This document shows positions 7,522-18,391 of a stretch of DNA of 50,745 nt, one piece after another. The notes under the pieces were generated by a model. The model had not been told where the DNA came from, did no database searches, and worked only from the letters and a program-made list of their open reading frames with translations. Each line of letters opens with the position of its first letter. The stretch's first letter is position 1. The translations under genes and the position numbers were made by a program. The stretch comes from an uncultured Clostridia bacterium (GTDB lineage: Bacteria; Bacillota; Clostridia; Christensenellales; Borkfalkiaceae): NCBI GenBank assembly GCA_947625595.1, contig CANQOX010000003.1, forward strand, positions 1-50,745, given 5' to 3'.

Positions 7522-8548
7522 ATTCCCCGAAAAACCGACGGTTGAAGGCGACGGAGGGGTGATCGGGGGCGAGCTCCTCCGCCCGTTTGTGACAGAAAAG
7601 CGCCCTCTCCCTCTCCCCGAGCCGCCAATAGCAGACGACGAGTTGCAGGAGGGGGGTCAAAGTCCTGCACTGCGGCTCTTCGAAGTCCCCCTCGGCCGTG
7701 TGGTCGCGGCAGGTGCGGGCGGCCTCATACCAGAAGGCGGCCTCCCTGTATCGCTTTTGCGAGAGGAAGAGCCTCCCGATCGCGCACAGCACGAAGGCGC
7801 GCGGTTCGCCGAAGAGGAAACTTGCAAAGAGCGCCTGCATCGCCTTCTCTCCCTCTCCCATTTCCTCATAACAGCGGGAGAGGACTTCGCAGGCGGCGAT
7901 CTTGTTGACATACCACCCGTCTCCGCGGAGCATTTTTTCGAGGACGGCGGCGGCCTCGGTGTACAGCCCGTGATAGGAAAGCTCCCTGCCGTAGTAGAAG
8001 AGATCGCGCGGGGAGAGGGGCTCTTCTCCCGCCCATTTCAGGTAGATGTCGAGGTTGCGCCTGCCCCGCGGCTTTCCGCTCGGGAGGTGCCTGACCTCCA
8101 AGGGGAAGCGGAGAACTTTGCCGCGCGGCGCGATCGCCTCATGCACGCGGCCCGCGAAGCGAAAATTTGCCTCCCGCCGCACAAATCTCTCCCGCTCATA
8201 GCGAAGGTTCCCCGACAGATAGGGGCAGAACACCATGTCGGGCTTTTCCTCCCCGAGAAAGTCGCGCAGGGGAGCGAACTTTGCCCCCTCGACGACGTCG
8301 TCGGCGTCTAACCAGAGGAGGTAGTCCCCCGCGCCGTGCGAAAACGCTTCATTCCGCGCCCGCGAAAAGTCATCCGTCCACGGGAGGGAGAAGACCTTGT
8401 CCGTGTACTTTCCCGCGATCTCCTTCGTCCCGTCCCTCGAGCCTGTGTCGACGATGACGAGCTCGTCATACAGGCCCTTCGCGCTGTCGAGACAGCGGGA
8501 GAGGACCTCCTCCTCGTCCCGCACGATCATGCAAAGAGAGATGAGCAT
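7520..8548 (-). CDS. Glycosyltransferase family 2 with C-terminal TPR-like region (SunS-like)
   Basis: MLISLCMIVRDEEEVLSRCLDSAKGLYDELVIVDTGSRDGT...LWLDADD; helical repeats after it. Confidence 0.85.
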   Translation of the reverse strand: MLISLCMIVRDEEEVLSRCLDSAKGLYDELVIVDTGSRDGTKEIAGKYTDKVFSLPWTDDFSRARNEAFSHGAGDYLLWLDADDVVEGAKFAPLRDFLGEEKPDMVFCPYLSGNLRYERERFVRREANFRFAGRVHEAIAPRGKVLRFPLEVRHLPSGKPRGRRNLDIYLKWAGEEPLSPRDLFYYGRELSYHGLYTEAAAVLEKMLRGDGWYVNKIAACEVLSRCYEEMGEGEKAMQALFASFLFGEPRAFVLCAIGRLFLSQKRYREAAFWYEAARTCRDHTAEGDFEEPQCRTLTPLLQLVVCYWRLGERERALFCHKRAEELAPDHPSVAFNRRFFGE

Positions 8549-8674: not shown

Positions 8675-8716
8675 TAGTAAAATACTATTGACAGGGGTAA
8701 GCCGAAGGGGTATAAT
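8675..8716 (+). promoter_or_regulatory. Consensus sigma70 promoter with abutting palindromic operator candidate
   Basis: TAGTA-AAA-TACTA (8675-8687) directly followed by TTGACA (8688-8693), 17 nt, TATAAT (8711-8716). A second palindrome TTACAAAA-AAA-TTTTGTAA is at 8652-8670. Confidence 0.8.
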
Positions 8717-8744: not shown

Positions 8745-9290
8745 ATGTTTGGAAAGAAAAAGAAGAAGGAAACAGAGGAGGAGCGCAGCCAGCGCATCGC
8801 GCTGACGGCGGAGAAGCTCCGCTCGCAGATCGCCGCGATCGGCAATCAGAAGAATGTTCTTCTCTCCAAGGTCATGGAGGCGAGGCAGAAGGGGCTCCCC
8901 GCGCAGGAGGAGCAGGCGCGCACGCTCCTGAAGCGGTCGATGGCCGCGGAGAAGCGGGCCAATGCCATGCTCATGACCCTCGAACTTGCCGTCCAGTCAC
9001 GCGACCTCGCCGAACTCAACAAGCAGTTCCTCGAGGCCATCGGCTCCCTGTCCACGGACATCACGGCCGCCGCGTCGAAGACGGACACCAAGCGGGCGGA
9101 GAAGGAGTACATGAAGGCGATGTACGCCTCTTCCAAACAGACGGCCGCCCTCGATGAGATGCTCGCCGTGGGGGACTACGGCGCCGTCCTTGCGGAGGGG
9201 GCGGACAGTTACTCCGAATTTGACGACGAGATCGACGCCATGTTAAGAAGCGCCGAGGCCTCGCCGACCTACCGCAAGACAACCATTTAA
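8745..9290 (+). CDS. Small helical protein, ESCRT-III/Snf7-like (tentative)
   Basis: Basic N-terminus MFGKKKKKE, long coiled-coil helices, acidic C-terminal helix FDDEIDAMLRSAE; adjacent to Vps4-like ATPases. Confidence 0.5.
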   Translation: MFGKKKKKETEEERSQRIALTAEKLRSQIAAIGNQKNVLLSKVMEARQKGLPAQEEQARTLLKRSMAAEKRANAMLMTLELAVQSRDLAELNKQFLEAIGSLSTDITAAASKTDTKRAEKEYMKAMYASSKQTAALDEMLAVGDYGAVLAEGADSYSEFDDEIDAMLRSAEASPTYRKTTI

Positions 9291-9303
9291 CGGAGGATAG
9301 ATC

Positions 9304-11913
9304 ATGTCGTTTCGGACTTTCAAGAAGGAACTCAAGCGCAAACAGGAGGAGGAACGCACGCTCGCCGCGCTCAAGAACGCCGAGGCCGCGCTCACCCGCC
9401 GCAGAGACGAGTACGCACAGAGGGCCAAGGAGGCGTTGAAGGCGGGCAACAAGTCGCAGTACGCGACCTATGTCGCCCTGTTGAAGAACGCCATGTTTAA
9501 CCTTGCGCAGGCGCAGGACATGACGGCCAATTTCATCATCGCCCGCGACCTTCGCGAGATGCAGACGCTCAACCAGAAATTTATCCGCGCCATCAACAGT
9601 GTCATGAAGGACGTGTACAAAACGAGCAGATCCATCAATGTACAGGCCTCGCAGGACATCTTTTTGAAGGCGCTTGCCAAACAGCAATATGTCTCGACGG
9701 AGCTCAAATCCCTCCTCGAGGAGAACAGCGTCGCCTTTTCGAGCAGCGTCACCACGCTCACGGACATCAGCGATGAAGAGGTAAAGGGCATCCTTGAGGC
9801 CGAGATCAAGCGGGACGGAAACGATCTCGATGACACGCTCAAAAAGCTCGAGGAGGAGTTTTCGGTAGCTCCTGCCTCGAAGGTGACCGCCCGCCCATTG
9901 ATTGAGGCCGAAGGGGGGGTACCCTTCGCGCCTCCGTCCGCGCCCGCTCGCGCTCCCGCGCCCGAGGCCGCGCCCGCCTCGCCTTTGCCCGCATCTTCCG
10001 CGCCCGCATCTTCCGTTCCCGCGCCCGACGCGCCCTCTGCGCCCGCCGCACCGTCGGAGGAGAAGGGACGCACCTTTGACGTCGACAACATCGCCTTCCG
10101 TCCCACCCGCCTCAAAGACTACGTCGGCCAGCCGAACGCCGTGGCGACGGTGAGCGACCCCATCAAGAAGGCCCGCCTCACGGGCAAACCGCTTCCGCAC
10201 ATTCTCATCTGCGGCTCCTACGGGCAGGGCAAGACCACCCTCGCCAAGATCATTGCCAACGAGATGGACGGGAGGTTCATCACGCTCACCGCGGGCATCA
10301 AGTACCGTGAAATGCTCAAGACCCTCCGCGAGACCAAGCCCAATGACATCATCTTCATCGACGAAGTGCACAAGCTCGCCACCGAAGTCATCGAGACCCT
10401 TCTCTATCCCGCCATGGAGGACTTTGAGATCCACTACACCGAGACGAAGGGGGGCAAGGTCCTTCCGAAGAGCGAGAAGATCGCACCCTTCACCCTCATC
10501 GGCGCGACGACGGAATCGGGCAAACTGCTTAAACCCTTTTACAGCAAATTCCCCATCAATGTCACGTTGGTGGACTACGACATCGACACCATCGCGGGCA
10601 TCGTGAAGAATTCCTTCCGCGTCTCGCACATCGGGATCTCCGACGAGCTCGCGCGGCTCGTCGCGGGCCGCAGCCGCCTCTCTCCCCGTCAGGCCAACGC
10701 CTACGTCAACGGGATCGGGGCCCTCGCCATCGTGCGCGAGGCAGAGCGGCGCCACCTCCCCGACGGGTCTCTCCGCAGTGAGAAGACGGTGGAGGAGCTG
10801 GGCATCACCATTCAGAAACAGGACGTGCTCGACTATTTTGACCGCCTCGGGATCGACGAACTCGGCCTCAAGGAGGAGGAGCGGAAGATCCTTCGCGTCA
10901 TCATCGAGATGTACGGCGGCGGCCCCGTCGGGCAGGAGAACATCGCGAAGGCCCTCAACATGGCCACCAACCGCATCGATCAGGAGTACGAGCCTCTGCT
11001 CGTCAAGCTCGGCTTCATCAACGTCCGCCCGCAGGGCAGATTCGTGACCGACGCCGCCTACCGCTATCTCGGCTACCCGCTCGATGCGCGCGGGGACAGG
11101 GAGGGGACCCCTCCCGACAGCGCGAAGAGCGCAGAGGCCGACGGCGCGGACGCGGGAAACGGGGGAGGGACGTTTGCGAACGCCCCCGCGCCCGAGGAGG
11201 ACGATCTGCCCGTCATGGAGTGCGCGGTCGGACCCTTTGACGCCGACCTTGCGCCCAAGATCGAGGCCCTCTTTGAGGGGGAGGGAACGCCCACCGCAAG
11301 CGCCCTCGGCGAGCTCTTTTCGCCCGTCGATAAGGAGTACGAATCGACGGCGAAGAACAAGTGCATCCTGCGCGTCTCCAACGGGCGGGAGCTCTACTGC
11401 GATTCGGCCCTCGAGCGGAGGTTTCTGAAATTGCTCTTCGAGAGGGGCTTCATCACCGACGCCCTCTCCGAGTCCCTCGAGCTCGACTATTCCTCGCGGA
11501 GGATGTCGGGGAAGAAGTACTATCCCGACTTTGTCCTCAAACTTCACGACGGCAGGATCGCCGTGGTGGAGATGAAGAATCTCTCCTCCATGGGGTATCA
11601 TCTGAACATTGACAAATACGACTGCCTCTCGGCCTACTGCGCCGAGAACGGCTACCTGTATGCGGAGATCGCGCGGGACGACAGCACGAAAAAATATGTG
11701 AGCGCGGCGCAGATCAGGGCCCTTCCGACGGACGAGCGCCTCTCCGCCTTCGTCCACGGCAGGATCGACGAGAGCGGCATGTGTAGCGGCGACGACCTCA
11801 AGGCCTTCGGCTATGATGTGCGCAGTCTCATGTCCCTGCTCTTCAACGACAGGACGCTCAAGAACATCGATCGCACGGGCGCCGACCCCAAGATCGTCAG
11901 CGCGGACGAGTGA
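9304..11913 (+). CDS. Fusion protein: N-terminal Snf7-like helical domain, RuvB-type AAA+ ATPase with winged helix, C-terminal PD-(D/E)XK-like nuclease
   Basis: Coiled coil 9304-9870; Walker A GSYGQGKTTL, Walker B IIFIDEVHKL, IGATTESGKLLKPF, GGGPVGQENIAKAL...EPLLVKLGFINVRPQGRFVTDAAYRYLG (RuvB-like wHTH); SALERRFLKLL...YYPDFVLK...AVVEMKN (nuclease motifs). Confidence 0.8.
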   Translation: MSFRTFKKELKRKQEEERTLAALKNAEAALTRRRDEYAQRAKEALKAGNKSQYATYVALLKNAMFNLAQAQDMTANFIIARDLREMQTLNQKFIRAINSVMKDVYKTSRSINVQASQDIFLKALAKQQYVSTELKSLLEENSVAFSSSVTTLTDISDEEVKGILEAEIKRDGNDLDDTLKKLEEEFSVAPASKVTARPLIEAEGGVPFAPPSAPARAPAPEAAPASPLPASSAPASSVPAPDAPSAPAAPSEEKGRTFDVDNIAFRPTRLKDYVGQPNAVATVSDPIKKARLTGKPLPHILICGSYGQGKTTLAKIIANEMDGRFITLTAGIKYREMLKTLRETKPNDIIFIDEVHKLATEVIETLLYPAMEDFEIHYTETKGGKVLPKSEKIAPFTLIGATTESGKLLKPFYSKFPINVTLVDYDIDTIAGIVKNSFRVSHIGISDELARLVAGRSRLSPRQANAYVNGIGALAIVREAERRHLPDGSLRSEKTVEELGITIQKQDVLDYFDRLGIDELGLKEEERKILRVIIEMYGGGPVGQENIAKALNMATNRIDQEYEPLLVKLGFINVRPQGRFVTDAAYRYLGYPLDARGDREGTPPDSAKSAEADGADAGNGGGTFANAPAPEEDDLPVMECAVGPFDADLAPKIEALFEGEGTPTASALGELFSPVDKEYESTAKNKCILRVSNGRELYCDSALERRFLKLLFERGFITDALSESLELDYSSRRMSGKKYYPDFVLKLHDGRIAVVEMKNLSSMGYHLNIDKYDCLSAYCAENGYLYAEIARDDSTKKYVSAAQIRALPTDERLSAFVHGRIDESGMCSGDDLKAFGYDVRSLMSLLFNDRTLKNIDRTGADPKIVSADE

Positions 11914-11930
11914 CCGCGCAGGGAGGAAGT

Positions 11931-13073
11931 ATGGACTTTTCCAGAGATTATCTGCACGGAAGGTTTCAGAGGAGCTACGAGGAGGCCCTCTCCGCCAAGC
12001 GGGGAAACGACCTCGCGCGGGCCAAGCGGCTCTTCCTCGAGGCGGCCGACTACATGGAGCGGCTGGCAGAGTGCGAAGGGGAGGAGAGGGAGACCTGCCT
12101 CGCCAACGCCCAGCGCATCCGCAGGATCGCCGCCGCGATCGTCCCGTCGCCCTATGGGAACACCGTGGACACGCCTATCTCCATGGATCCCTCCGCGCCG
12201 CAGAGCCTCTATCCCATCGGCACGGCGGGGGAGAAGGCGGCGCCCGCGAGAGGGGAGCCCATTCCCACGGGCATGGAGCAGTACTTCACCTTCTTCCGCC
12301 CCGATGAATTGGAGGGCTTCGAGAGCGTCATCGGCCTCGAGGAGGCCAAAGCGGCCGTCGAGGACTACGTCATCAATCCCATCCGCTATCCCGAGGCGTA
12401 CAGCTACAATTTCCTCGACAACAAGGCCATTCTGCTCGAAGGCCCCCCGGGGACGGGCAAGACGACCTTTGCCAAGGCCGTCGCAAAGGAGGTGGACCAG
12501 CCCTTTGCCCTCGTCAACGTCTCCGCCCTCGTCAACTGCCTCGTCGGCGAGACGGGCAAGAACATCGACAAGGTCTTCGCCTTCCTCCGCGCCTACGCAG
12601 AGAAGAACGACTGCGGCATCACCGTCTTCTTTGACGAACTCGACGAGATCGGCAAGGCGCGCGGCAGTGATGACAAGACGTCCGAGGCCGCCGTTCCCGC
12701 CCTCCTCCGCAACCTCGACGGCGTGGCGAAGAACAAGCGTTTCCTGATCCTCGCCAATACCAACCGCAAGGATCTCTTCGACAGCGCGCTCGCCGAGCGC
12801 TTCCGCAAGCTCATCTATATCCCTCTTCCCGATGCAGACCTCCGCGAGAAGCTCTTCGCGGCCAAACTTTCGGACGTGGAGGAGAGATTCATGGGCGAAC
12901 TCGACCTGAAAGAGGCGGCGGCACGGTCGGAGGGGCTGAGCGGCAGGGACATCACCTTCATCTGCGACGATTTCAAGTATCTCCTCGCCAAGGTCAAGGC
13001 GGGCCTCGCCGAAGGGACGCCCATGGAGGCCCTCCTCGGCCTCATTCAGAAGCGAATGGATTCCAAAAAGTAA
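11931..13073 (+). CDS. Classic AAA ATPase, Vps4-like, with MIT-like N-terminal helices
   Basis: Helical N-term (RSYEEALSAKRGNDLARAKRLFLEAADYMERLA...); GPPGTGKTTFAKAVA; TVFFDELDEIG; LDGVAKNKRFLILANTNR; SALAERFRKLIYIPLPDADLR; SEGLSGRDI. Confidence 0.82.
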   Translation: MDFSRDYLHGRFQRSYEEALSAKRGNDLARAKRLFLEAADYMERLAECEGEERETCLANAQRIRRIAAAIVPSPYGNTVDTPISMDPSAPQSLYPIGTAGEKAAPARGEPIPTGMEQYFTFFRPDELEGFESVIGLEEAKAAVEDYVINPIRYPEAYSYNFLDNKAILLEGPPGTGKTTFAKAVAKEVDQPFALVNVSALVNCLVGETGKNIDKVFAFLRAYAEKNDCGITVFFDELDEIGKARGSDDKTSEAAVPALLRNLDGVAKNKRFLILANTNRKDLFDSALAERFRKLIYIPLPDADLREKLFAAKLSDVEERFMGELDLKEAAARSEGLSGRDITFICDDFKYLLAKVKAGLAEGTPMEALLGLIQKRMDSKK

Positions 13074-13129
13074 AAGGAGCGTTTCCACACTGGTTTCAAA
13101 AAAATTTTTTTCAGAAAAGATAGAAAAAG

Positions 13130-13173
13130 TTGTATTTTACAAATTGACATAGGTCATTGAATAGTGTTATAAT
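13130..13173 (+). promoter_or_regulatory. Internal promoter of the cluster with palindromic operator candidate
   Basis: TTGTA-TTT-TACAA (13130-13142), then TTGACA (13144-13149), 18 nt, TATAAT (13168-13173), upstream of the XRE gene. Confidence 0.75.
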
Positions 13174-13192
13174 TTGAACAAAAGGAGAAAGC

Positions 13193-13516
13193 ATGAACAG
13201 ACAAAAAGATTGTAGCGGGATCGCAACGCGGCTCAAACTGCTTCGCGTCGAAGCAGGTCTCACACAGGCGGATATCGCTGCGAAGCTCGGGATCTCCCAG
13301 CAGATGTACAGCAAGCTGGAAAATACGGACACCCCGCTCGATTCGGGCAGGCTCAAGATGCTCTGCGAACTGTACGGCGTCTCTGCCGACTACATTCTCG
13401 ACATTCCCACGCCTCCGCAGAAGCAGGAGATCCAGCAGACGGCATTTGTGGACAGCCAGATCGACGACATCGTCGAGAAAGTGCTCTCCCGTATCAACAA
13501 GACGAGCGATCATTGA
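13193..13516 (+). CDS. XRE-family (Cro/CI-type) HTH regulator
   Basis: IATRLKLLRVEAGLTQADIAAKLGISQQMYSKLENTDTPLDSGRLKMLCELYGVSADYILDI. Confidence 0.92.
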   Translation: MNRQKDCSGIATRLKLLRVEAGLTQADIAAKLGISQQMYSKLENTDTPLDSGRLKMLCELYGVSADYILDIPTPPQKQEIQQTAFVDSQIDDIVEKVLSRINKTSDH

Positions 13517-13529
13517 GGCGGTGAAAGGT

Positions 13530-14615
13530 ATGGTTTTCTGTAAAAATTGCGGAAAGGAATATGACGAAGGGAGGGAGTCCTGCTGTCCCGCATGCGGTGC
13601 GCCCATCTCTTATTCGCAGAATGCGGGCGCGGGCGACAGGGGCGCGGAGACCGACTTTGTGAAGTTTGCCGACCTCATGGACGATGATACGCTCTTCTAC
13701 GCCGCCGTCTGCCGCAAGGAGGGGATCGCCGTCGCGAAGGACCTTTCGCAGGCGAAGGAGCTCTTCCACCTGCTTGCCCTGCGCGGAAGCTGTGACGGCA
13801 TGTACCAGTATGCCTGCATGTGCCTCGAAGATAAATTCAGCGAGCAGGCGGGCGTGCGTTGGCTCAAGGCCGCGGCCGAGAAGGGGCACCTCTCGAGCAG
13901 GCTCAAGCTCATGGAGCTTGCGGGCGAGGGCCGCGTGTCCGTCTCGGGCGGACTGTCGCAGGGGGAGGCGTTCACCGTGACGGAGGGCGCCCCCGCGTCG
14001 GGGGCCTCGGAGGGAGAAAAGAGCTTCCGCGACCTCGTCGAGAGGGGACTTCCCAACGTGACCGCCGTCTTCAGCGGACACGGGAGCGTGTGCAGTACGG
14101 GGGCGGGCTTCATGCTCCGCGGCGGCCTTGTCGTCACGAACGCCCACGTCGTCGGGGAGACGCCTTCGTCGGTGAGCGTCCGCTTTGAGCCCGCGCTCGA
14201 CCCCAAGACCTATGAGATGCAGGTCGTCGGCCTCTTCCCCGAGTACGACATCGCCATTCTTGCCTTCAAGGGCGTGGCAAAGGAACGCTTTGCCGAGCGG
14301 CAGGGTTTGCTCCTTCGGACGGGTCCCGTCTCCTACGGCGAGCAGGTCTACACCGTGGGCAATCCCCTCGGGCTGGGCCTGAGCGTCTCGCGGGGGATCG
14401 TTTCCTGCCCTGTGCGGGAGACGGAGTATGCCAAATCCGTCCGCGACGTCGTCCAGACGGACATCACGGCCAACCACGGCAATTCGGGCGGCGCACTTCT
14501 CGACGGCGAGAACCGCGTCATCGGAATGGTCACTTTCATGCCGAGCGCGGCGGAGGGGGGCATCGCCATGTGCGTTCCCTCCAAATACATCGTCGAAGCT
14601 CTCAATAAAATGTAA
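13530..14615 (+). CDS. Zinc-ribbon / Sel1-like / trypsin-like (S1/DegP-type) serine protease
   Basis: CKNCGKEYDEGRESCCPACG; Sel1-like helices; catalytic motifs TNAHVVG, EYDIAIL, NHGNSGGALL. Confidence 0.85.
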   Translation: MVFCKNCGKEYDEGRESCCPACGAPISYSQNAGAGDRGAETDFVKFADLMDDDTLFYAAVCRKEGIAVAKDLSQAKELFHLLALRGSCDGMYQYACMCLEDKFSEQAGVRWLKAAAEKGHLSSRLKLMELAGEGRVSVSGGLSQGEAFTVTEGAPASGASEGEKSFRDLVERGLPNVTAVFSGHGSVCSTGAGFMLRGGLVVTNAHVVGETPSSVSVRFEPALDPKTYEMQVVGLFPEYDIAILAFKGVAKERFAERQGLLLRTGPVSYGEQVYTVGNPLGLGLSVSRGIVSCPVRETEYAKSVRDVVQTDITANHGNSGGALLDGENRVIGMVTFMPSAAEGGIAMCVPSKYIVEALNKM

Positions 14616-14634
14616 AAACAAAAGGAGATAGATT

Positions 14635-15486
14635 ATGGGTATTTTTTCTCACAAGACAAAACAGATCGTCATTTCGATCGATCCCGTGTATTGCATCCGT
14701 TCGATCCCGCTCGATAACATCGCCTACAATGCGACGGTCATCGTCGAGACGGGCTGCGTCGGCATCTACGTCGTCAACGGAAGAAAGAGTTCGACGTTCA
14801 GGCCCGGCACTGCGTACATGATCAACGATAAGAAGGACCGCGATATCCGCAGTATGGTCCTGATCGGGGCGAACGTCAACAAGGAGTTCGAGGTGTGCAG
14901 CGGCATCGGCGGCATTCCCTACCATGACGACGAACTCGGCATGGACGCCAAGGTCGGCATCAGCGCGGACATGAAAGTACATATCGTCAACCCGTGGGAT
15001 TTTTACGTCGCTTTGGGGAACAGGGACGTCACCGAAAAGGACGTCAACGACTATCTGCGCGGGCAGTGCGCCACCGTCCTTCAGGCCGAGCTTGCCAAAC
15101 GGCTCCAATACTGTACATATGAGGACATCAGCACACAGGCTACAAAGATGGCCCAAAAGGCCGAAGAGCAGTTGCAGAAGATCTTTTTGGAAAAGGGCGT
15201 CGAGCTTGTGAAAGGCTCTCTTGTCCTCGGAAACTTCTATTTTGACGAGGACTATCTGGAATACCGCAGGCGCGTGCAGACCGCGCGGGGGGAGGCCGCG
15301 ATCGCGAAGGACGAACAGGCCGCCAAGCGCGAGAAGGACATGGCCGACCTCGAGGCGTTGAGCCGCGCCAAGGAGATCTTCGGCAGAAAGCCCGACGCGG
15401 CTCCCGCCGACAGGAAGTGCCCGCTCTGCGGCATGACAGTCCCTGCGGGCGCGTCTGTCTGCCCCAACTGCGGCAAGAAAATGTAA
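14635..15486 (+). CDS. SPFH/Band-7-like protein with C-terminal zinc ribbon (YdjI/virion-core-like)
   Basis: Long beta-rich N-terminal half, helical segment ARGEAAIAKDEQAAKREKD, C-term CPLCGMTVPAGASVCPNCGKKM. Confidence 0.65.
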   Translation: MGIFSHKTKQIVISIDPVYCIRSIPLDNIAYNATVIVETGCVGIYVVNGRKSSTFRPGTAYMINDKKDRDIRSMVLIGANVNKEFEVCSGIGGIPYHDDELGMDAKVGISADMKVHIVNPWDFYVALGNRDVTEKDVNDYLRGQCATVLQAELAKRLQYCTYEDISTQATKMAQKAEEQLQKIFLEKGVELVKGSLVLGNFYFDEDYLEYRRRVQTARGEAAIAKDEQAAKREKDMADLEALSRAKEIFGRKPDAAPADRKCPLCGMTVPAGASVCPNCGKKM

Positions 15487-15510
15487 GGAAAAACGGAGGA
15501 GAATAAAGCC

Positions 15511-16974
15511 ATGGGACGGAAACAACTTCAAATTAACAAAGGGATGATCGGAGATATCGTCAGTGCGTTCAATGACATGATCGAGACTTGCAGAGATCCG
15601 GCCGTTTTGGATAAGCTGAAACCGCTTGCCAAAAGGGCAGAGGAACTTCCCGTTTCGGATTCCAAAAAAATGGTCGATATTGATGAAGAACTTCTTAGCT
15701 GTGTTAAGGAGCTGCAAGCTGCGATCGGAGAAGGAAATATTCACATGGGACAATTCCTCATCGAGAAGATCTCCGATCTTTTCAAGAAGCATACCCAAGC
15801 TTGCCCGCCGAGTTACGAGCATCTCTCAAAATCTGCACGGAAACTCCAAATAAAGAAAGATAAACAGGCTCGTAAGGCTAGTAAGAGGAGAGCGCGCCTC
15901 ATAGATAAAGGAAGCATCGATGAACTGAAGCGCGAGATCAAAACACTTGAAGACGAGAACAAAAAGGCGGAGGAGAGGTGTGATATCCTAAAAAAACAGC
16001 TGAGAAGTGCGACCACCAAGTCGGAATTCGAGCAGGTGAAATCGCAGCTGAGGACTGAGGAGTATCTCATCGCTTCCAATGAGGAGTCGATACAGGCCTT
16101 GTACCAAGCGATCGAGCGCAAGTCTACGCAAGAGATTCTCGAAAAACAGGGGAAAACAGTCAAAAAAGCCAAAGAGGCCGCACCTTACAATGACGAGGAA
16201 CTTGTCACACAAGAGAAAAAACTGGAACGGGAGAGGGAACATGCGGCGCAGAGCCAAAGTGTCGTCGACAGTATCATGGACAATACGATCAAGAGAAGGA
16301 ACGCCCGCGGAGAGACAGACGCATCCCCCGTTGATTCGGCCGAAGAGACGTGGACCAACCCCTACGCGGGAAAGCAGAATCCCTATGGTCCCTCCGCGCC
16401 GCAGCGCGGCAGGGTGGAGGACTACTTCGAGGACGTCGATGAGCAGGTCGGCCTCCTGAAGGGCACGGTCAGGGAGATCGAGAGGGAGATCGGCAAGAAG
16501 GAGGGCAAGCTCCGCGAACTCAGCGAAGAGATCAGGGGACTTCTCCAAAAGCGCAGGGAGGCTTCGGCCGCAGAATGCGTCGTCCTCGACGGCACGATCG
16601 ACAGCAAATACAGCGCGTATTCCACCGTCAAGCTCGGCATCGACCGCCTCAACCAGGAGCGGGCGAAATACTCCATGGAGCTGAACATCGTCGAGCAGAT
16701 CAAGGATATCCGCGACGCCGCAGAGAGGAACGAGAGGATCGCGGAGATGTCGGGAGGACGCTTCCTCGACATCGGTGCGCTCGCGCTCGCCGTCAGTGAG
16801 GACACCGCCCGCAAGAACGAGATCATCGCCGAAGCGAGGGACGCCGTCGCCGTTGCGAACGCCACGTCCATCGACAGCAGGACCTTTGCCGAGACGGGCG
16901 TTACATACGATACAGGCGTCAAGGATGAGGACAAGTACGCAGGAATGGAAAGGGAATTCGGACTTCGCTCATAA
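15511..16974 (+). CDS. Large two-part coiled-coil protein (possibly ESCRT-III/PspA-like)
   Basis: Two long alpha-helical segments joined by a Pro/Asn-rich linker (WTNPYAGKQNPYGPSAPQ). Confidence 0.55.
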   Translation: MGRKQLQINKGMIGDIVSAFNDMIETCRDPAVLDKLKPLAKRAEELPVSDSKKMVDIDEELLSCVKELQAAIGEGNIHMGQFLIEKISDLFKKHTQACPPSYEHLSKSARKLQIKKDKQARKASKRRARLIDKGSIDELKREIKTLEDENKKAEERCDILKKQLRSATTKSEFEQVKSQLRTEEYLIASNEESIQALYQAIERKSTQEILEKQGKTVKKAKEAAPYNDEELVTQEKKLEREREHAAQSQSVVDSIMDNTIKRRNARGETDASPVDSAEETWTNPYAGKQNPYGPSAPQRGRVEDYFEDVDEQVGLLKGTVREIEREIGKKEGKLRELSEEIRGLLQKRREASAAECVVLDGTIDSKYSAYSTVKLGIDRLNQERAKYSMELNIVEQIKDIRDAAERNERIAEMSGGRFLDIGALALAVSEDTARKNEIIAEARDAVAVANATSIDSRTFAETGVTYDTGVKDEDKYAGMEREFGLRS

Positions 16975-16986
16975 GGCAGGTGCAGA

Positions 16987-18138
16987 ATGGATTACGAATA
17001 TTGTATGAAGGTCGTCGCGGCGAACAAGGAGAACCTCCGCAAAGCGGAGGCGATGGGGAACGAGGCGGCCATGCGCAGCTATGCGGAGAGCATTTCCCGA
17101 AACCTGCGCAAGGCGGCGGGCTTTGCTCCCGCCCTCGCCGATGAACTTTTGGCCGAGGCCGCAAAATACGACAGCTACGTCGACCGCTATCTCGCCGCGC
17201 CGTCCGAGAAGAGGACGCCCGTGCGCCAGAACGGCTTTGAGAACGCACCGAAGCGCGCGCCCGCGCCTTCCTCCGCGGCAAGAAGAGAGGCGGAGAGCGA
17301 GCGGGAACAGAGCGACGGAGAGGGGTACGACTTCGGGGCGGCGGAGCTCATTTCCTCCAAGACGAAGATCACCTTTGACGACATCGTCGGCATGGAGGAC
17401 GTCAAGGAGGAGATCCGCAAGACGCTCATCAACCCCCTGAACCACCCCGAGGCCTACGCCAAACACAACCTCTCCGCGGGCGGCTATACCCTCCTTTGGG
17501 GTCCTCCCGGGACGGGAAAGACGACCTTTGCCCGCGCCGTCGCCAGCCAGATCGGCGTGCCCTTCTTCAAGGTGGACAGCTCCGAACTCGTCAACAAATA
17601 CCTCGGCGAGACGGCCAAGGAGATCAGGAAGGTCTTCACGAGCGTGAGACAGTACGCTGCGGACAACGACACGCCCGTCGTGCTCTTCATCGACGAGATC
17701 GACGCCTTCGCGCGGAAGCGGGAGTCGGGCGAAACGGCCGCGGGCGCGGCTGTGCCCGCCCTCTTGCAGGAGTTGCAGGGCTTCGACACGAGCAGTAAAA
17801 ACATCATCGTCATTGCCGCAACGAACGTCAAGGAGACCCTCGACAGCGGCGTGATCAGCCGTTTCAAGTGCATTCATGTGCCCCTGCCCGACTTTGCCGC
17901 AAGGCGCGCGCTCATCGAGCTCAAACTTCGGGACGCCTACCGCGTCGACGAAGCCGACATCGCGCAGATCGATCTGGACGATATCGCCCGCCGCACAGAA
18001 GGCTTGAGCGGCAGGGACATCACCAAGGCCGTGGAATCCCTCGTGCATGACATCATCATGCGCGACGAAGGGGAGGCGGCGATCGACGAGCCGTTGAGCG
18101 ACAGGCTCATGCGCTATCTCTCCCAATATCTGGCATAA
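16987..18138 (+). CDS. Classic AAA ATPase, Vps4/katanin-like, with N-terminal helical domain
   Basis: DDIVGMEDVKEEIRKTLINPL; GPPGTGKTTFARAVA; pore loop VNKYLGE; VVLFIDEIDAF; ISRFKCIHVPLPD; TEGLSGRDI. No HExxH protease domain. Confidence 0.85.
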   Translation: MDYEYCMKVVAANKENLRKAEAMGNEAAMRSYAESISRNLRKAAGFAPALADELLAEAAKYDSYVDRYLAAPSEKRTPVRQNGFENAPKRAPAPSSAARREAESEREQSDGEGYDFGAAELISSKTKITFDDIVGMEDVKEEIRKTLINPLNHPEAYAKHNLSAGGYTLLWGPPGTGKTTFARAVASQIGVPFFKVDSSELVNKYLGETAKEIRKVFTSVRQYAADNDTPVVLFIDEIDAFARKRESGETAAGAAVPALLQELQGFDTSSKNIIVIAATNVKETLDSGVISRFKCIHVPLPDFAARRALIELKLRDAYRVDEADIAQIDLDDIARRTEGLSGRDITKAVESLVHDIIMRDEGEAAIDEPLSDRLMRYLSQYLA

Positions 18139-18199: not shown

Positions 18200-18222
18200 C
18201 TCCCCCTCGGGGGAGTTTTTTT
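18200..18222 (+). terminator. Strong intrinsic terminator closing the ESCRT-like cluster
   Basis: CTCCCC-CTCG-GGGGAG followed by TTTTTTT. Confidence 0.85.
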
Positions 18223-18348
18223 GTGCGCAAGAAGGGGGAACGCGCGGCCCCGCGGGACGGACAGAAAGGGTCCGTGCGCGTTTCTGCACATTTCTGCGCA
18301 TTCATTGTCGAATTCCCCCCATAATATGTTTACTTTTCAAGTTTTCAA

Positions 18349-18391
18349 ACATTTATTGACAGAATCACAACGGAATGATATGATAAATGTG
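18349..18391 (+). promoter_or_regulatory. Promoter/operator of the rhamnoside ABC transporter operon
   Basis: TTGACA (18356) -17- TATGAT (18379), flanked by inverted repeat ACATTTAT/ATAAATGT; shares a 17-nt identity with the rhaB promoter. Confidence 0.75.

Follow-up and report, generated by a model that had tools for sequence, protein, structure and literature searches.

Do bacteria possess a machine built on ESCRT-III-like polymers and the ATPases that act on them, and if so, what is it used for? A published survey found ESCRT-III plus Vps4 confined to archaea and eukaryotes. The question is raised by eight genes, g1 to g8 (positions 8745–18138), in a 50,745-nt stretch of DNA, here called the window, on contig CANQOX010000003.1 of an uncultured Clostridia bacterium (Borkfalkiaceae). 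The initial annotation had read this cluster as a self-contained membrane-remodelling or conflict/stress system. Its core, i.e., ESCRT-III-like proteins, ATPases combining MIT and AAA domains and a conserved gene unit, withstood our analysis; the Vps4 identity of the ATPases did not, and support was lacking for the MIT domain of g8 and the Snf7-like nature of g7. On balance, we interpret the cluster as a bacterial ESCRT-like machine on which toxic or repair enzymes are scaffolded, with a conflict response, to phages or to a membrane breach, as its most likely role; the conflict is probably one with phages.

The protein g1 and residues 1–200 of g2 (g2N) are homologous to each other, and both are included in an alignment of 44 members, the g1 family. 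In the AlphaFold2 (AF2) model of g1 (mean pLDDT 80), helices 11–48 and 52–109 form a long hairpin, followed by helices 115–142, 145–150 and 156–172, the last of which is confident. The top 12 Foldseek matches of this model among 350,542 PDB chains all belong to the ESCRT-III superfamily (Asgard ESCRT-IIIB with a probability of 0.98, CHMP2A-CHMP3, CdvB, CHMP1B/IST1 and Vipp1), followed by Loki CHMP4-7 and Snf7 (TMt 0.67–0.70), and this unanimity of the top matches argues for an ESCRT-III fold despite weak E-values. Compared with hhalign, the g1 family profile matched Asgard ESCRT-III at 96.4% across 179 columns, vs at most 1.4% for all controls (reversed profiles, 12 heptad-block shuffles, an unrelated helical family and the SerRS coiled-coil family). 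After removal of all sequences from the window and from its counterpart in the same genus (locus L076), the family still reached 95.7%, and g1 and g2N joined this reduced family at 99.2% and 99.9%, respectively. An hmmsearch of the family profile against PDB recovered CHMP2A, collinear across 130 residues (E=0.008). Model and profile comparisons thus support the placement of g1 and g2N in the ESCRT-III superfamily. Several coiled-coil proteins of the cluster had been described as Snf7-like; this applies to g1, by Foldseek and controlled profile comparison, and to g2N, a g1-type domain fused at the N terminus of g2 that had been overlooked, but is not supported for g7. No PF04012 (PspA_IM30) match was obtained for g1 or in genome G000, and hhalign to two PspA sequences gave at most 4%. 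Weak Pfam matches of g1 to DUF4890/PriC, under the cut-off and compositional in appearance, were rejected.

A single family emerges when the N-termini of g3, of most AAA proteins in related clusters and of RuvB-nucleases from relatives are aligned; it matched the MIT domain of Asgard Vps4 at 95.1% in hhalign (reversed control, 20–37%); for g3 and most of the relatives' AAA N-termini, MIT profile matches reached 95–97%. The AlphaFold model of the g3 N-terminus is a three-helix bundle with archaeal CdvC MIT, Vps4 MIT domains and MITD1 as its best PDB matches (TM score up to 0.76, for MITD1), and profile and model together support an MIT-type domain. The same had been proposed for the helical N-terminus of g8, but there hhalign against MIT gave less than 1%, from a profile of two sequences. 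In the C-terminal tails, 35 of the 44 g1-family members show MIM1-like spacing, compared with a mean of 4.2 and a maximum of 11 after shuffling; the segment of g2 reads LDDTLKKL.

The AAA domains of g3 and g8, which had initially been termed Vps4-type, were recovered by Pfam, NCBIfam and alignment, and the Walker motifs are intact in g3 (A and B) and g8. In a tree of AAA domains, however, the two branch within the classical group as a lineage of their own, separate from Asgard Vps4, Cdc48, PAN and FtsH, and g8 scores about equally with the Cdc48, PAN, FtsH and CdvC models; the IYIPLPD motif is common to Cdc48 too. On the separate lineage and the comparable scores, an assignment to Vps4 was rejected. 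The system may work like ESCRT-III/Vps4, though its ATPase is not Vps4. A scan of genome contigs with g8 yielded AAA proteins that were for the most part unrelated. Several relatives encode a single protein with MIT, CbbX-type AAA and classical AAA domains (L078:7290-9377, L083:13529-15601 and others). Bacterial PspA has been linked to a two-AAA protein with an inactive N-terminal copy (PMC11237479), and these proteins may be of that partner type.

Several observations weigh against our interpretation. The Foldseek E-values of g1 all exceed 0.05 (0.06 upward); Pfam Snf7 gives no match to g1, nor do the other direct homology searches (phmmer against PDB, NCBIfam); and de novo designed helical proteins score like CHMP2A in the PDB profile search. 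A profile of g1 and its L076 orthologue alone yields just 9% to Asgard ESCRT-III, so that the link goes via the wider family. The g1 tail lacks the extra MIM1-like segment found in relatives, although g2 has one. An SPFH protein together with ESCRT-III also fits the repair of envelope stress, without any enemy. The weak E-values, the TPR repeat matches that were also obtained with the MIT-like profile and the general promiscuity of helical hairpins would suit a coiled-coil artefact, with nothing more than a generic helical hairpin in g1, a helical bundle of TPR type in place of the MIT domain and a convergent resemblance to ESCRT. Against this stand the controls, which do not match, and the convergence of two independent halves (ESCRT-III fold and MIT fold) with MIM1-like tails and an adjacent AAA gene in 30 of the 32 loci compared. 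We consider such an artefact quite improbable.

The ESCRT-III-like and MIT-AAA proteins are encoded among eight open reading frames in one direction, with intergenic gaps of 12–24 bp except for 119 bp ahead of g4:

8688..8716, + strand: promoter of unit 1, sigma-70-type consensus TTGACA-N17-TATAAT (12/12 match)
8745..9290, + strand: g1, ESCRT-III-like subunit of 181 amino acids (aa) with basic N-terminus, alpha1/alpha2 hairpin and alpha5-like helix (AF2 model, Foldseek, hhalign)
9304..11913, + strand: g2, ESCRT-III-like domain (1–200), RuvB-type AAA/winged helix (266–590) and TnsA-like PD-(D/E)xK nuclease (about 690–800) (Pfam, hhalign, motif conservation)
11910..13073 (or from 11931), + strand: g3, N-terminal MIT domain and classical AAA ATPase (Pfam, profile, model)
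13144..13173, + strand: promoter of unit 2, sigma-70-type consensus TTGACA-N18-TATAAT (12/12 match)
13193..13516, + strand: g4, XRE-family helix-turn-helix regulator (Pfam HTH_3, E=4e-14)
13530..14615, + strand: g5, zinc ribbon, Sel1-like region and trypsin-like serine protease (Pfam, sequence motifs)
14635..15486, + strand: g6, SPFH/Band_7 protein with zinc ribbon at the C-terminus (Pfam)
15511..16974, + strand: g7, helical/coiled-coil protein, residues 28–94 resembling a 112-aa helical subunit of related clusters (hhalign, 72%)
16987..18138, + strand: g8, classical AAA ATPase with helical N-terminus (Pfam, AAA tree, Walker motifs)
18200..18225, + strand: intrinsic-terminator-like hairpin and T-run (sequence)

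For g3, the ATG at 11931 is a likelier start than the GTG at 11910. Because consensus promoters precede both g1 and g4 and the hairpin follows at 18200, two transcription units are likely, g1–g3 and g4–g8; the initial annotation had the eight co-directional genes and the terminator-like hairpin right, but assumed one promoter instead of two. A third strong promoter-like site (TTGACA-N17-TATGAT, 18356–18384) lies ahead of the ABC-type gene on the downstream side; a related genome in which the insertion site is empty (G026) has it too. The previously assigned RuvB-nuclease fusion (g2, RuvB plus TnsA-like PD-(D/E)xK), zinc-ribbon trypsin-like protease (g5) and SPFH-like zinc-ribbon protein (g6, Band_7/SPFH with the ribbon C-terminal) were all recovered by Pfam, NCBIfam and alignment, and the XRE component (g4) by Pfam HTH_3. 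In g2, Pfam confirms RuvB and places the TnsA-like nuclease match under the cut-off; the nuclease motif (CDS.LE, PD, EMKN) is kept in all complete RuvB-nuclease members. The H, D and S motifs of the g5 protease are intact (TNAHVV, YDIAIL, GNSGG). Pfam gave nothing useful for g1 and g7, and hhalign did not support g7 as a tandem ESCRT-III apart from its N-terminal 112-aa-type domain.

Across the 32 loci, a core is largely kept that consists of the SPFH-zinc ribbon protein (23 loci), a 112-aa helical protein, a 199-aa helical protein, the ESCRT-III-like protein and the MIT-AAA protein (30 loci), whereas the accompanying genes are exchanged: RuvB, as RuvB-nuclease cargo, occurs in 9 loci, a trypsin-like protease, mostly with zinc ribbon, in 9, TIR proteins (TIR-LRR or TIR-TPR with zinc ribbon) in 9, BrxL in 4 and an SNF2 helicase in 3–4. 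In the TIR-LRR/TIR-TPR proteins inside the relatives' clusters, the zinc ribbon is N-terminal (L127:3224-7388, L083:10140-13502, L130:13345-15432). BrxL, the Lon-like protease ATPase of BREX, follows the MIT-AAA gene in L129, L130, L131 and L133 (Pfam-confirmed in L131, by similarity in the others), and no other BREX genes were recognised there. The SNF2 helicase, about 1300 aa long and nearest to DrmD/BrxH, is encoded downstream of the RuvB-nuclease (L084:13759-17643, L142:1715-5605, L137), in L084 and L142 with a protein of 382–391 aa in between. The 199-aa helical family (E3b, family A6; L078:9981-10574, L083:8860-9453) is usually encoded immediately upstream of the g1-type gene. In hhalign it reached 39% to Asgard ESCRT-III and, for the g1 family, 37% (0.2% when reversed), which is no more than suggestive of a second ESCRT-III-like subunit that has diverged further. 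A phylum-wide search with E3b, run without a positive control, was empty.

The RuvB-nucleases of relatives bear an MIT N-terminus, and the RuvB protein of the window, L076 and L139 bears the ESCRT-III-like domain instead. Either fusion would link an enzyme acting on DNA to the polymer, and no other observation points as strongly to a role for polymer recruitment.

Of the 396 genomes of the order, 43 (about 11%) carry homologues of g1, as do 36 of the 329 that are of good quality; a sample of 392 genomes from the class gave no match to the g1 family outside the order. The neighbourhood, for which the initial annotation had called for a comparison across Clostridia, is conserved in many genomes, but as sampled in this order only. 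The cluster is flanked by a glycosyltransferase gene and an ABC-transporter gene. At the corresponding site of G026, genes for IMPDH, guaA and the glycosyltransferase are contiguous with those for a 736-aa ABC-type protein and a permease, with 296 bp between the glycosyltransferase and ABC genes. G060, of the same genus as the window, carries all eight genes in unchanged order, but amid other neighbours (L076). The empty site and the second location identify the cluster as an insertable unit. A different variant of the system occupies the window's site in G024. The site by the guaA-proximal glycosyltransferase (window 7523–8548; L271-L286) is occupied in related genomes by genes that differ widely, some of them encoding proteins of about 3000 aa, and from this strongly differing content it looks like an integration hotspot. 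The initial annotation had named a lack of ESCRT-III topology, a lack of MIT folds and an unconserved neighbourhood as grounds against its reading; the g1 fold, the g3 MIT domain and the conservation across genomes were all supported.

Movement as a unit, together with the TnsA-like fold and its intact PD-(D/E)xK motif, could also indicate a DNA-mobility or recombination module, in which RuvB and the nuclease act on replicating or invading DNA and the cluster is a membrane-tethered element, either transposon-like or for plasmid control. Yet the eight genes include neither transposase nor integrase, and the insert ends show no attachment-site or terminal repeats beyond an 11-bp G/C-rich repeat between the flanks. 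Moreover, the RuvB-nuclease is missing from most relatives, and in most loci the conserved core comes without any DNA enzyme. This is the least probable of the explanations considered. No close relative turned up among phage or plasmid records, and searching viral contigs with g2 gave one weak match, to the nuclease part only.

The conflict reading draws on the patchy presence, the shared insertion site and the immune-type cargo of relatives (TIR-LRR/TPR, BrxL, SNF2 helicase). In the mechanism we propose, g1 and g2N would assemble into a polymer on the inside of the cell membrane; g6 probably provides the platform there, and membrane-anchored subunits would help to place the polymer. The MIT-AAA ATPases, g3 and by analogy g8, would attach to the tails of the polymer and use ATP to reshape it or take it apart, keeping it dynamic. 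A trigger such as a breach or phage entry would alter the polymer state, which in turn would restrain or release the effectors, i.e., the RuvB-driven PD-(D/E)xK nuclease of g2, itself a polymer subunit, and the g5 protease; g4 would control the second transcription unit. The broader proposal is an undescribed class of bacterial immunity, in which a membrane ESCRT-III-like polymer remodelled by MIT-AAA proteins acts as sensor or switch, freeing interchangeable effectors (RuvB-nuclease, trypsin-like protease, TIR, BrxL, SNF2) recruited via MIT or as polymer subunits; we regard this as a finely balanced proposition.

The main rival to the defence reading is an envelope-stress or membrane-repair system like PspA/Vipp1-YdjI, in which the polymer patches lesions, the AAA protein recycles it, and protease and nuclease perform quality control. 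It is favoured by the SPFH/zinc-ribbon protein next to an ESCRT-III-like one, an arrangement also known from PspA-YdjI loci of bacteria (PMC10936438), by the N-terminal transmembrane helix of some 112-aa subunits (L078, L126, L132) and by a vacancy: no PspA above the family cut-off was found in 101 genomes of the order. However, patchy presence and a variable insertion site are unusual for housekeeping repair, as is cargo such as TIR-LRR, nuclease and SNF2, and we consider this rival unlikely.

The cluster, then, points to a membrane-scaffolded system for defence or damage response that has so far gone unrecognised. If this is true, a bacterial ESCRT-III/MIT-AAA module would bear on where ESCRT originated, and its link to nuclease, protease and TIR proteins would be a new coupling of membrane state to cell-intrinsic immunity. 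No ESCRT-III-like/MIT-AAA module with such cargo came up in full-text searches, whose coverage mostly excludes subscription papers and preprints. This agrees with the initial annotation, which knew of no experimentally described system of such composition, but partial precedents exist: bacterial PspA/Snf7-clade genes adjoin AAA+ genes, and Vps4-like AAA proteins occur in bacteria without Snf7 (PMC11237479).

Among known systems, DISARM and BREX share with the related clusters the SNF2 helicase nearest DrmD/BrxH and BrxL; both are absent from the window, and no other DISARM/BREX core genes were recognised. The anti-phage system IetAS (AAA protein IetA plus subtilisin IetS) shares the theme of AAA and serine protease, and of the PADLOC models, the one for IetA comes nearest to g3 and g8. 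An assignment to IetAS was rejected, as g3 and g8 reach 125–133 of 510 bits, far under the curated NCBIfam cut-off, and g5 is trypsin-like, not subtilisin; the ESCRT-III-like polymer, SPFH protein and nuclease set the cluster further apart. In bacterial PspA/Vipp1 systems, AAA and Band-7 proteins likewise accompany a member of the ESCRT-III superfamily (PMC11237479, PMC10936438), but the g1 family pairs better with Asgard ESCRT-III than with the two PspA sequences, MIT and MIM1-like parts are present here, and effector cargo is undescribed for PSP (phage shock protein) systems. Archaeal ESCRT/Cdv systems (ESCRT-III or CdvB with Vps4 or CdvC; Asgard and Meth_adaptin systems with SPFH-zinc ribbon, PMC10936438) share one to three ESCRT-III-fold proteins beside an MIT-AAA ATPase, an SPFH protein with zinc ribbon and MIM1-like tails. 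In contrast to these, the cluster described here is bacterial, its AAA lineage is not Vps4 and no ESCRT-I/II winged-helix partners were recognised, while nuclease, protease and TIR cargo accompany the core and an ESCRT-III domain is fused to the RuvB-nuclease.

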